Positions 531-55,426 of a stretch of DNA of 64,000 nt are shown here, piece by piece (the stretch's first letter is position 1; each line of letters begins with the position of its first letter). Source of the DNA: Deltaproteobacteria bacterium (GTDB lineage: Bacteria > Desulfobacterota_D > UBA1144 > Nemesobacterales > JAJCZQ01); the NCBI GenBank assembly GCA_029262335.1, contig JAJCZQ010000017.1, positions 68,033 through 132,032 of the forward strand. Reading direction: 5' to 3'. A program made the position numbers and the translations under genes. Under the pieces are notes generated by a model. That model did no database searches and was not told where the DNA came from. It saw nothing but the letters and a program-made list of their open reading frames with translations.

Positions 531-3461
531 ATGGATCATTTACACAGTCTATTAAAAAGACAAATAAAGCGGAACCTTAAGGAAACTGACGATGTTCCAG
601 AAGATTTCCTTAATTTACTAAACAGTATAAGTGAAGCTTATAAAAGCTTTGATGATGACAGAAATATGCTGGAACGCTCACTTGAGCTGAGTTCGGAGGA
701 GCTTTTGTCCGCAAACATAGAGCAAAGGGGACTTTTCCAGTCCCTTCCCGATCTGATATTCGTTATTGATATTAATGGATTGATTCTGGACTGCCGGGGT
801 GGAAATGAATCCGATATGTTACTCCCAAGAAAAGAATATAGAAATAAGAATTTCCTGGGAATACCGAATGAAGATATTCGTGCAAGGATCAGGGAATCTA
901 TAGAAAAAGTTGTCAAATCAAAAGAGAATGCCTCATTTGAATACAGTCTCGATATATACGGTAAAAGAAATTTTTATGAGGCGCGATTATTAAAACTTGA
1001 CGATAAACGCATTATTATTGTAATTAAAAACTTTACCGAGAGAATTAAAACTGAGGAAATTCTGATGAATAATTTCCTCGAAATTTCGAAAAAGAATCTA
1101 TACGAATCTATTTTGAGTTCGGTCTCCCAGTCAGCACATAATACACCTGATGTTGATGAAATAATGAACACCACCATTGAATCTGTTTTTGATCAGGTTG
1201 ATTCAGTTGAATTTATATCTGTTTTTCAGGTTGAGGGTGACAATGCGGTATTAAAATCACAGAGGGGTTACCCGGACTGGTTTACTGAAAAAATCAAAGT
1301 AATTGATTCCCCTACCAGTGTAACACGGCAATGTGTAAAAAACGGGCAGTCCATACATGTAAACAATCCCGATGAAGACAGTTACCTTGGAAAAGCAGGC
1401 AGGGAACTCGGTATAAAGTCATATGTGTCCACACCAATATTCTTACACGGCAGGCCTACCGGGTGTATACACATACAGTCGACCATTACTGATGCATTTG
1501 ATAAGAATGATTTTAATTTTCTTGAAAGTCTAAGCCAGCAGATTGCAAATACAATTAATACTTCGCTCCATGCCCAGGCACTAAGGGAATCCGAGCAGCG
1601 TTACAAAACACTTTTTGAACAGTCACCCGACGCTATCTGCATTATAGATAAAAGTTTCAGGATAATACATTGTAACCAGAGCCTTGCCGATATATTTCAA
1701 TCCAGTTTTGAAAATATTATCGGTCTGGACCTTAATAAACTAAAAGACAAAGCTTTTGTACCCGTTGTTGAGAGGGCTTTTAATGGTGAGATATGTACAC
1801 ATACAACTTACTATGAGGCATCAACCAGTTCTGCAAAACTCTGGCTTAGTGCAAGGTTGGTACCCATTTACGGTAAGGATGAAGATGAAATTATAAGCGT
1901 AATGGGTGTTGTAGAAGATATTACAGAAAGAAAGATTGCCGAAACAAAATTAAAAGACAATGAAACAAGGTTCCGCCGGATAGTGGAAAATACCACAGAT
2001 ATAATTGTGGAGGCAAGTTTTGAAGGAAAGTTTCTTTACTTAAGCCCGAACGTGAAAGAAATAATGGGTTATGAAGAGGAAGAATTAATCGGTACAAGTA
2101 TTTTTGATAGGATACATCCCGATGACCTTGCCGCTGCGATCAAAGAGTTTTCAGGAACAATACAGGAAATGCGTAAGGGCGCCATGACTCTGAGAATGCA
2201 CCATAAAAACGGTGACTGGAAATGGCTGGACATTTCAGGAAGACCTTATACTACGTCGGACAACATAATTAAATCTGTTATTACAGCAAATGACATTACC
2301 GATAAAAAGAATCAGGAAGAAGAGACTATTAAGCTGCAAAAACTGGAATCCCTGAGTGTACTTGCAGGGGGTATTGCTCACGACTTTAACAATATTCTTA
2401 CAGTTGTAATAAGCAATCTTTCGCTGGCAGAGATGCATCTTGAAGGTAATTCGGAAGTTGTTGAGATGATATCTTCGGCACAAAGGGCATCTATGAGGGC
2501 AAGCGACCTGACCAACCAGTTAAGGACTTTTGCAAAGGGAAGTTCCCTGATTAAACAGGAAATGCTCCTGAACACATTTCTCGAAAAATCCATAAAATTT
2601 GCACTAATGGGTTCAAATGTATCTTGCGAATTTAATTTATCTGAAGACGTAGCTGTTGAGATTGATGAGAACCAGATCAGCCAGGTTGTAAACAACCTTA
2701 TTATTAATGCCAAGCAGGCAATGCCTAACGGTGGCCTGATTAAAATAACCAGTCAGGTAGCAGAGCTTACCGAAGAATCAGGACATAATCTCGAACCTGG
2801 AAAATATATAAAAATTTCTATTGAAGATGAGGGTGTTGGAATTGCAGGTGAAAACATTACTAAAATATTTGACCCCTATTATACGACAAAGGAAAAAGGA
2901 AGCGGCCTTGGACTTGCAACTTCATATTCTATAATACAAAAACATGACGGTTTAATTACTGTGAGTTCCAAATTGGGAGAAGGTACTGAATTTGTTATAC
3001 ACCTGCCCTGTATATCAAAGCATCTGTATTCCAACAACCTTCATTCCGAAGGCGATAATATGGATGTCAATCAGCAGGGGAAATTGCTCCTGATGGATGA
3101 TGAAGAGGAGTTAGTTGAGACGCTCAGTCTTATGTTAAAAAAGATTGGATACGAAGTAGATACCACAAGAAATGGGAATGAAGCCATTTCAGCTTATAAT
3201 AAGGCCCTGAAAAGCAGTAATTCTTATCTTGCGGTAATTCTGGATTTGACAATACCGGGAGGTATGGGCGGTGTTGAGACTGTTAAAAAATTAAAGGAAT
3301 TAGACCCTGATTCTTACTGTATTGTTTCCAGCGGTTATTCAGCAGACCCTGTAATAGAACAATACAGGGAACACGGATTTAGTGACTATCTTAATAAACC
3401 ATTTTCCGTAAATAAACTTAAGGAAGTATTGCACAAATTACAAAAACACCACGCAGGTTAG
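531..3461 (+). CDS. Hybrid sensor histidine kinase (PAS/GAF/PAS/PAS-HisKA-HATPase-REC)
   Basis: H-box GGIAHDFNNILT, ATPase GSGLGLATSYSIIQKHDG, receiver LLLMDDEEELVETL...VILDLTIPGGMGG...NKPF. The start is moved from 468 to ATG 531, just after the corrected FIST stop. Confidence 0.92.
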   Translation: MDHLHSLLKRQIKRNLKETDDVPEDFLNLLNSISEAYKSFDDDRNMLERSLELSSEELLSANIEQRGLFQSLPDLIFVIDINGLILDCRGGNESDMLLPRKEYRNKNFLGIPNEDIRARIRESIEKVVKSKENASFEYSLDIYGKRNFYEARLLKLDDKRIIIVIKNFTERIKTEEILMNNFLEISKKNLYESILSSVSQSAHNTPDVDEIMNTTIESVFDQVDSVEFISVFQVEGDNAVLKSQRGYPDWFTEKIKVIDSPTSVTRQCVKNGQSIHVNNPDEDSYLGKAGRELGIKSYVSTPIFLHGRPTGCIHIQSTITDAFDKNDFNFLESLSQQIANTINTSLHAQALRESEQRYKTLFEQSPDAICIIDKSFRIIHCNQSLADIFQSSFENIIGLDLNKLKDKAFVPVVERAFNGEICTHTTYYEASTSSAKLWLSARLVPIYGKDEDEIISVMGVVEDITERKIAETKLKDNETRFRRIVENTTDIIVEASFEGKFLYLSPNVKEIMGYEEEELIGTSIFDRIHPDDLAAAIKEFSGTIQEMRKGAMTLRMHHKNGDWKWLDISGRPYTTSDNIIKSVITANDITDKKNQEEETIKLQKLESLSVLAGGIAHDFNNILTVVISNLSLAEMHLEGNSEVVEMISSAQRASMRASDLTNQLRTFAKGSSLIKQEMLLNTFLEKSIKFALMGSNVSCEFNLSEDVAVEIDENQISQVVNNLIINAKQAMPNGGLIKITSQVAELTEESGHNLEPGKYIKISIEDEGVGIAGENITKIFDPYYTTKEKGSGLGLATSYSIIQKHDGLITVSSKLGEGTEFVIHLPCISKHLYSNNLHSEGDNMDVNQQGKLLLMDDEEELVETLSLMLKKIGYEVDTTRNGNEAISAYNKALKSSNSYLAVILDLTIPGGMGGVETVKKLKELDPDSYCIVSSGYSADPVIEQYREHGFSDYLNKPFSVNKLKEVLHKLQKHHAG

Positions 3462-52963: not shown

Positions 52964-53059
52964 CTAAATACCCGGAATGAGGGGTACTCCGCATCCGCAT
53001 CCGGAAAGTATAATAGTTACAGCTATGAGTAATAGTAGACCAGGTTTTATAAAATTCAT
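52964..53059 (-). CDS. 31-aa lipoprotein, MNFIKPGLLLLIAVTIILSGCGCGVPLIPGI (absent from ORF track)
   Basis: Lipobox LSGC. Confidence 0.5.
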   Translation of the reverse strand: MNFIKPGLLLLIAVTIILSGCGCGVPLIPGI

Positions 53060-53086: not shown

Positions 53087-53242
53087 TTATTTTGTTACAG
53101 GTGACTGAACCTTGTAACCTTTTTCTGTCATTATATATGCTGCACTTCCGCCTGCTGCTGCTCCTGCTACAAGAGCCACGCAGCTGGTTCCAAGAAGAGA
53201 AACACATATAACCATCGGTATTAAAAGATTTTTTAATTTCAT
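53087..53242 (-). CDS. 51-aa lipoprotein, MKLKNLLIPMVICVSLLGTSCVALVAGAAAGGSAAYIMTEKGYKVQSPVTK (absent from ORF track)
   Basis: Lipobox LGTSC followed by an Ala/Gly-rich segment. Confidence 0.6.
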   Translation of the reverse strand: MKLKNLLIPMVICVSLLGTSCVALVAGAAAGGSAAYIMTEKGYKVQSPVTK

Positions 53243-53307: not shown

Positions 53308-53880
53308 TTATGGGCTGCACGTTTCACACTCTTCACAGTTCTCATTCGGCCAGTCCCCGCCAATAAGCTTTCCGTTATCATCAAGCTTAAATTTACAACA
53401 GTCGATAAAGTGCTGCTTTATCATCTCTTTTCCCCTAAGAATCCTGGATTTGGCCGCAGGCAGGGATATGCTGAGTGTCTCAGCAACATCTTTCTGCTTC
53501 ATGCCCCGAAGCTCGCTGAGTTCGACAGAGTCTCTGTATTTTTCGGGCAGGATTTTCACAAATGAACTGAGGCATGCTTTTATCTGGCAGTAAAGATCAC
53601 CTTCAACTTCTATTTCCGGCACTATGAAGTCTTCATTGAACTCAATATTTATTTTGTTTCCGCTGTTCCTGTAATAATCAATAATTGTATTTCGTGCAAT
53701 GCTGTATATCCATGCAGGAAGTTTTTCGGATTCTGTAAGGCTTTCTATGTTTTTATGGATCTTTATGAAAACATTCTGGAGAATATCTTCAGCTTCAACT
53801 TTATTGTTTACCCTTTTGTAGATAAAGGAATAGAGCTGCTTATTAAAATTGTCCCAGACTTCTTCAGTAGAGTAATTCAT
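53308..53880 (-). CDS. sigZ: SigZ-type ECF RNA polymerase sigma factor with C-terminal Cys cluster
   Basis: Region 2 DILQNVFIKIHKNI...AWIYSIARNTIIDYYR, region 4 LPEKYRDSVELSELRGMKQKDVAETLSISLPAAKSRILRGKE, then CCKFKLDDNGKLIGGDWPNENCEECETC. Confidence 0.88.
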   Translation of the reverse strand: MNYSTEEVWDNFNKQLYSFIYKRVNNKVEAEDILQNVFIKIHKNIESLTESEKLPAWIYSIARNTIIDYYRNSGNKINIEFNEDFIVPEIEVEGDLYCQIKACLSSFVKILPEKYRDSVELSELRGMKQKDVAETLSISLPAAKSRILRGKEMIKQHFIDCCKFKLDDNGKLIGGDWPNENCEECETCSP

Positions 53881-53917
53881 CGTATATATGTCCTGATTGT
53901 CATTGTGAGTAAAATGA

Positions 53918-53939
53918 AGCAATCTCATAAGAGATTGCT
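53918..53939. repeat. Inverted repeat AGCAATCTC-ATAA-GAGATTGCT in the metallothionein-like/sigma intergenic region
   Basis: 9-bp perfect arms, 4-nt loop. Confidence 0.7.
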
Positions 53940-53985
53940 CCGTTGATTTTAAATATCTTAAAGAATCAATAATTACTAACTGATA

Positions 53986-54111
53986 CTATTTAGTACATGC
54001 GCATGAGCAGTTGCAGACACCGTTGGCACAGTCGCAGCCTTCGCATTTACAGCTTTCATCACAGTTGCAGCCAGCGCAGTCACATTTCTTTTCTATTATA
54101 AGATTCTTCAT
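53986..54111 (-). CDS. Metallothionein-like 41-aa Cys-rich peptide (absent from ORF track)
   Basis: MKNLIIEKKCDCAGCNCDESCKCEGCDCANGVCNCSCACTK: 12 Cys in repeated CxCxxCxC; AGGAG a few nt upstream of ATG. Confidence 0.75.
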   Translation of the reverse strand: MKNLIIEKKCDCAGCNCDESCKCEGCDCANGVCNCSCACTK

Positions 54112-54163
54112 GATTATCTCCTTTTATGGGATTGTTTACCCATTTGTATATTTTACCTATAAA

Positions 54164-54189
54164 GACGGAGGAGTATGTAAAAAGATGCA
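54164..54189 (-). promoter_or_regulatory. ECF-type promoter candidate TGCATC-N16-CGTC upstream of the metallothionein-like ORF
   Basis: Minus strand TGCATCTTTTTACATACTCCTCCGTCTTTATA resembles TGTAAC-N16-CGTC ECF promoters. Confidence 0.45.
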
Positions 54190-54212
54190 AAAGAATTAAA
54201 TTTTGTAATGCC

Positions 54213-54259
54213 TTAAAATGAAAAAGGGGATACAGTTTGTATCCCCTTTTTCATTTTAA
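54213..54259. terminator. Bidirectional intrinsic terminator, 22-bp perfect stem and 3-nt loop
   Basis: TTAAAATGAAAAAGGGGATACA-GTT-TGTATCCCCTTTTTCATTTTAA downstream of the sigma-70 gene. Confidence 0.9.
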
Positions 54260-54274
54260 TTTTATATTTTATTG

Positions 54275-55426
54275 TTACTGGCTTTTTAAGAAGCTTTCGA
54301 GATGGTCTTTGATATTGGAGTTTGCGAGTTTGCCAAGTGCGGCTTTTTCAATCTGCCTTATTCTTTCCCTTGTGAGATTAAACCTCTTACCAATTTCATC
54401 AAGAGTATAAGTACTCTGGCGGTCAATGCCGAACCTGAGTCTTATTATCTCTTCTTCTCTTTCGTTAAGAAGCAGAAGAGCTTCTTTTAATTTCTCTGCA
54501 AGAGAAGCTTTTGCAATTACTGAGTCTGGAATCATAGCTTCTTTGTCGGAGACAGAATCAAGAAGAGTTGTCTTCTCTCCGTCGAGTACCGGTGTATCAA
54601 GGCTTATTGCATCATTTGTAGAATTAAGAATTCTTTTTACAACTTCAACAGATATGCCGGACTCATCAGCAATTTCCTGCGGGGTGGGTTTTCTTTCCAT
54701 CTCTTTAGCAAGCTTAGCGCTTGTTTTGTAGACTCGGTTTGCCTGCTCCAAAAGATAAACGGGGACTTTGATCGTTCTTGTCTGGCCCTGGAGCGCCCTG
54801 AGTATTGCCTGGTGTATCCACCATGAAGCATAAGTCGAAAATTTATAACCCTTGGTATGGTCAAATCTTTCAACAGCCCTCATTAGTCCAAGGTTTCCTT
54901 CCTGAATAAGATCAGGCAGTGGAAGACCTCTGCTCATATATCTTCTTGAAATTGTAATTACCAGTCTAAGGTTAGCTTTTACAAATCTTTGTTTTAGTCT
55001 TTGTGCCCATTCGAAAAATACTTTTGTGAATGCGGCAAGGCAGTCAATTCTTTTATTAAGAACTTTCATCTTTGAGGGATTCTTACGAATCCTTGATTTC
55101 ATTGCAGTAAGCTGGGTAACAAATGAATTCAGTTCTCTTGCTTTTGCTTCACATTTTTTAATTTTTGCTGAAATTTCAACTTCCTGTTTGGCTGTAAACA
55201 GTGGTTCAACCGCCATATCTTTAAAATAGACATAAAGAAGCCTGAGCTGCTCATCAGGAACCCACTCATCTTCTTCATCTTTCTTTTTTGCGGCTTCTAT
55301 ACTGCTTTCGTCAATTTCAATTATTCCGTCTTCTATGTCGATGTCGATATCGTCATCACCAACAAAAGGCTCGAAATCTTCAGCATTTGCTTTTTTTTCA
55401 CTCATATCTTTATATTCGACTTCCAT
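54275..55426 (-). CDS. RpoD/RpoS-like sigma-70 factor
   Basis: DLIQEGNLGLMRAVERFDHTKGYKFSTYASWWIHQAILRAL...LDEIGKRFNLTRERIRQIEKAALGKL. Confidence 0.95.
   Translation of the reverse strand: MEVEYKDMSEKKANAEDFEPFVGDDDIDIDIEDGIIEIDESSIEAAKKKDEEDEWVPDEQLRLLYVYFKDMAVEPLFTAKQEVEISAKIKKCEAKARELNSFVTQLTAMKSRIRKNPSKMKVLNKRIDCLAAFTKVFFEWAQRLKQRFVKANLRLVITISRRYMSRGLPLPDLIQEGNLGLMRAVERFDHTKGYKFSTYASWWIHQAILRALQGQTRTIKVPVYLLEQANRVYKTSAKLAKEMERKPTPQEIADESGISVEVVKRILNSTNDAISLDTPVLDGEKTTLLDSVSDKEAMIPDSVIAKASLAEKLKEALLLLNEREEEIIRLRFGIDRQSTYTLDEIGKRFNLTRERIRQIEKAALGKLANSNIKDHLESFLKSQ

Follow-up and report, generated by a model that had tools for sequence, protein, structure and literature searches.

Bacterial metallothioneins that have been described include SmtA and the Pseudomonas metallothioneins (zinc, cadmium) and MymT (copper). 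The smtA gene is controlled by a divergent repressor, SmtB. The metal cluster of the Pseudomonas metallothionein is of the Cys9His type (PMC7387436).

In Myxococcus, the sigma factor CorE is activated by copper through its C-terminal Cys-rich domain (PMC3107203, PMC8999054), and copA is among the genes that it controls (PMC3107203). CorE-like proteins (former ECF44) are characterized by a CXC motif in the linker (PMC8999054), and the CorE tail carries four invariant Cys residues, 181, 184, 192 and 194, in the arrangement C-x2-C-x7-C-x-C (PMC3107203). For SigZ, another ECF sigma factor, no inducer was found in the literature searched, and searches for SigZ with metallothionein or arsenic, or for Dadabacteria with metallothionein, returned nothing relevant.

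In this study, we analyzed a window of 64,000 nucleotides from a Candidatus Dadabacteria genome (within G000:C17), in which a first-pass annotation had pointed out a short Cys-rich ORF as a possible metal-thiolate protein. That reading was right in part: the peptide is His-free, Cys-rich and selected, and the operon with SigZ to which it belongs had been missed. The conservation of this operon, with a promoter of its own, suggests both a function for the peptide and a class of inducer. From sequence, we consider it rather probable that a compact metallothionein-like buffer is expressed together with an autoregulated SigZ that does its own sensing and probably transcribes the gene of the buffer. 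If right, this would add a family of very short metallothioneins from an uncultured phylum, assign SigZ a testable role, supply a promoter motif that allows the regulon to be located from sequence alone, and couple metal buffering to anti-sigma-free ECF regulation.

A selected Cys-rich reading frame

The peptide gene occupies positions 53986..54111 of the minus strand. Its translation, MKNLIIEKKCDCAGCNCDESCKCEGCDCANGVCNCSCACTK followed by a stop, matches exactly the ORF first reported, with 41 codons, 12 Cys and no His. The Cys spacing is CxCx2CxCx3CxCx2CxCx4CxCxCxC, and the two CxCxGCxC blocks and the CxCxCxC end described earlier are therefore correct. A ribosome binding site, AAAAGGAGATAATC (54112..54125, minus strand), directly precedes the ATG, and a GGAGG-like site is present in all relatives.

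With a Cys fraction of 0.29, the peptide ranked first among 496 short ORFs in the window. In 60 Markov-resampled windows, matched in dinucleotide make-up and containing about 770 short ORFs each, no ORF had 10 or more Cys residues and the Cys fraction reached at most 0.21. A close homologue was found in one other of 61 genomes (G017), which belongs to another family of the same order; it is 66% identical, with 12 of 12 Cys in register and the spacing kept. Between the two sequences, pS was 0.87 and pN 0.22, and 24 of 41 nucleotide differences fell at third codon positions, a bias also seen in two further pairs of relatives. The first-pass annotation had proposed that a genuine gene would keep its Cys spacing in relatives and be enriched in synonymous substitutions, and both features were observed, the latter strongly. 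Because the Cys residues are conserved and the synonymous and third-position bias is strong, the frame is selected as protein, and this pattern indicates that the ORF is a real gene under strong purifying selection.

The ORF is short and its sequences differ widely between families, as might be expected of a chance or non-translated frame running across a regulatory leader. The null model and the third-position bias make such an origin very improbable, as does the fact that 15 copies all carry a Cys-rich frame with a ribosome site in this position. Both the peptides and their Cys spacing vary much between families, so some of the peptides may differ in function.

The window peptide matched no family among Pfam and NCBIfam models. 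Peptides of 13 relatives gave one weak match in Pfam (PF12749, Metallothio_Euk, E 0.0084) and none in NCBIfam, and the best match of the peptide profile among PDB sequences, Cd7 metallothionein-2, was not significant (E 0.22). The earlier suggestion of a possibly new family is consistent with these searches. Plasmids and viral contigs contained no match to the peptide; the profile also found none in nine genomes from other phyla that encode SigZ, in a search that was weak and had no positive control. CxC and CxxC packing is typical of metal-thiolate clusters. By its composition alone, the peptide is probably metallothionein-like and metal-binding.

A two-gene unit with SigZ

Directly downstream of the peptide gene, on the same strand, lies the gene for a SigZ-type ECF sigma factor (53308..53880, minus strand), giving a two-gene unit in which the peptide gene comes first. 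The sigma factor scored 183.1 bits against TIGR02959, above the curated cut-off of 168.65, and is thus a member of SigZ; against the stricter NF007215 model it scored 196.3, under the cut-off of 212. The start at 53880 agrees with relatives better than that of the longest ORF (53928), whose ATG lies within a hairpin loop.

We searched relatives for SigZ and inspected the upstream sequence at each match. A Cys-rich ORF of 32-41 aa was located directly upstream and in the same direction at 12 of the 14 SigZ-level loci, two of which (L017 and L018) score just below the curated cut-off. Counted over Dadabacteria SigZ genes, including the second SigZ of G035, an upstream mini-ORF accompanies 13 of 15; at other ECF loci (L019-L033) the count was 0 of 15. 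In two further genomes (G021 and G031), the peptide is present near a contig end. The genes around the pair change from genome to genome, which argues that the pair itself is the conserved unit. In a phylogenetic tree, all peptide-linked SigZ proteins fell within one supported clade (97/92), which also takes in one long-branched Bacteroidetes SigZ without the peptide; the two Dadabacteria SigZ proteins that have no peptide are not part of this clade, and one of the two branches among SigZ from other phyla. By these comparisons, the peptide-SigZ operon is new and so far seen only in Dadabacteria.

The gap between the two genes contains a terminator-like hairpin of 11 pairs with a weak T tail (53916..53941, minus strand; fold z-score -2.9). 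Of six other units that were folded, five form a stable stem-loop in the corresponding position, with z-scores from -3.4 to -6.3, and the stem of the sixth, from G037, was no better than shuffles (z -0.8); in the G017 unit the gap is too small for a hairpin. An Rfam search of the region gave no match. RNAalifold found little covariation, in an alignment that took in one wrong stretch (L085), and the case for the hairpin therefore comes from folds of single sequences. A reasonable reading is that it is a partial terminator or processing site, which would yield more peptide than sigma factor.

On the other side, a near-palindromic, terminator-like inverted repeat of 20 pairs (54214..54258, listed on the plus strand) divides the unit from an upstream sigma gene. 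The sigma-70 protein encoded there (54275-55426, minus strand) scored 311.6 bits with RpoD models against a cut-off of 555, and is probably a group-2-like second sigma factor. Two small minus-strand ORFs occur downstream of sigZ, at 53087-53242 (51 aa) and 52964-53059 (31 aa), and lipoprotein-like signals (...LLGTSC... and ...ILSGCGCG...) could be read in them by eye.

The unit promoter and its other sites

An ECF-type promoter, TTTGCATCTTTTT-N11-CGTCTTTA, lies upstream of the peptide gene (54160..54191, minus strand) and is probably read by SigZ. Its consensus, TTTGCRTCTTTTT-N10/11-CGTCTWT, is near-invariant before all complete units in 12 genomes, while the peptides downstream of it diverge. 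We take its spacing and the CGTC of the -10 element to be consistent with an ECF promoter. The motif has one site in the window and none in 100 shuffled versions of it, and the window site is its single occurrence in the genome.

A scan of 58 genomes returned 14 sites, comprising 10 of the 12 known ones, whose recovery is circular since the motif was derived from the 12 units, and four new ones. Three of the new sites precede a Cys-rich mini-ORF (in G021, in G031, and in the second unit of G035). The fourth, in G037, is an exact promoter upstream of the gene for the copper-exporting ATPase, copA (L108, G037:C50). Its motif score is 29.0, where the null reached no higher than 15.1, and this copA is the only one of that genome found by TIGR01511. 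The promoter is absent before copA of other Dadabacteria, the window genome included, and because the link is confined to G037 we do not generalize copper from it. In G024, a one-mismatch promoter (L081, about 3236-3265) precedes a glutathione S-transferase gene beside the peptide-sigZ unit. A Bacteroidetes sigZ without the peptide is directly preceded by TGCGTCTTTTT-N11-CGTATA (L068, 2143-2173), with -35 element and spacing identical to those of the Dadabacteria units. Sites with two mismatches were mostly due to chance, as judged by reversed-pattern controls, and were rejected. From the new unit sites and those before copA, glutathione S-transferase and the Bacteroidetes sigZ, taken together, it is likely that SigZ reads the motif and hence recognizes the unit promoter.

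The near-match site before glutathione S-transferase and the Cys-only composition of the peptide would also suit a unit that responds to thiol or redox stress (a disulfide or an electrophile) instead of metal, with the peptide as a thiol buffer. However, the exact promoter in G037 stands before copA, the CxC/CxxC packing is of the metal-thiolate type, and the nearest solved relatives of the profile, at a level that is not significant, are metallothioneins; we regard a thiol-stress response as quite unlikely.

Proposed metal sensing and comparison with known systems

A CC...CxxC-like tail is retained by nearly all of the SigZ proteins in the comparison; in the peptide-linked clade, the linker that leads into domain 4 also contains a Cys. 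An AlphaFold model of SigZ had a mean pLDDT of 80.7 and a pTM of 0.45, with the linker and the tail modeled weakly. No anti-sigma gene was evident beside SigZ at the loci read. The linker of the window SigZ reads CQIKAC, that is, C-x4-C and not CXC, and its tail, CC-x19-CxxCxxC, departs from the CorE spacing. Since both hallmarks fail, the protein does not belong to the CorE type. CorE, being activated by copper through a Cys-rich C-terminus, is nonetheless a precedent for a metal-activated SigZ, and by analogy the window SigZ may work like CorE in logic.

Genes for sigZ without the peptide adjoin arsenite methyltransferase genes in three lineages (L005, L065 and L066), one of these loci being from Dadabacteria, a hint that this peptide-less branch is involved with arsenic. 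Arsenate-reductase-like and aquaporin genes also occur near sigZ in L005. At two loci of other lineages, sigZ is beside an efflux-like permease gene, with permease matches below family cut-offs. The copA promoter, the CorE precedent, and the arsenite methyltransferase and permease neighbors make a soft metal or metalloid the likely signal for the SigZ unit; copper is our first choice, very tentatively.

It could be argued that the peptide is itself the sensor and sets SigZ activity in response to metal or redox state, either by acting like an anti-sigma factor or by donating metal to the Cys tail. The two are strictly paired and both Cys-rich, the place of an anti-sigma gene is apparently vacant, and zinc-binding soluble anti-sigma factors are known (PMC8999054). 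The peptide, however, lacks the hydrophobic or helical surface usual for an anti-sigma factor and diverges fast outside the Cys residues, unlike an interface. SigZ in other phyla manages without it, and the promoter and probable attenuator would give an excess of peptide over sigma factor, which fits a buffer. A sensor role therefore seems unlikely.

If the peptide is a buffer, as we favor, it would be a small cytosolic metallothionein-like protein whose 12 thiolates hold thiophilic metal ions. SigZ would read the TGCRTCTTTTT-N10/11-CGTCT promoter ahead of the peptide-sigZ operon and, having no evident anti-sigma partner, would probably sense metal itself via the linker and tail Cys. Excess metal, most likely Cu(I), with other soft metals or arsenite as further candidates, would activate SigZ, which would then transcribe the peptide gene and sigZ. 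The intergenic hairpin would cause more peptide to be made than sigma factor, and the peptide, by capturing the metal, would shut off the loop. A further step, a switch of two Cys-rich proteins in which SigZ senses metal, the mini-metallothionein competes for it, and the buffer replaces an anti-sigma factor in setting activity, is a tentative extension that we rather doubt.

Like SmtA, the Pseudomonas metallothioneins and MymT, the peptide is small, Cys-dominated and, by sequence, intracellular, and metal-thiolate chemistry is probably common to all of them. It differs from known bacterial metallothioneins in having no match in Pfam or NCBIfam and, in contrast to SmtA/PsdMT-type proteins with their His ligands, in containing no His. 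Whereas smtA has its divergent repressor, no SmtB/ArsR-type gene is in that position here; the neighbors of the peptide gene are the co-directional SigZ gene and the group-2-like sigma-70 gene. The beta domain of vertebrate metallothionein-2 is, like the peptide, CxC/CxxC-rich and His-free; homology between them is unsupported, and the likeness is likely compositional. SigZ proteins (TIGR02959) of other phyla had no Cys-rich ORF directly upstream at the loci examined, unlike the window unit. CorE and CorE2 of Myxococcus resemble SigZ in having no linked anti-sigma factor and a Cys-rich C-terminus, and copA is a target of CorE and, putatively, of SigZ in G037. The CorE regulon as described (PMC3107203) makes no mention of a metallothionein, whereas the SigZ unit has a metallothionein-like peptide.
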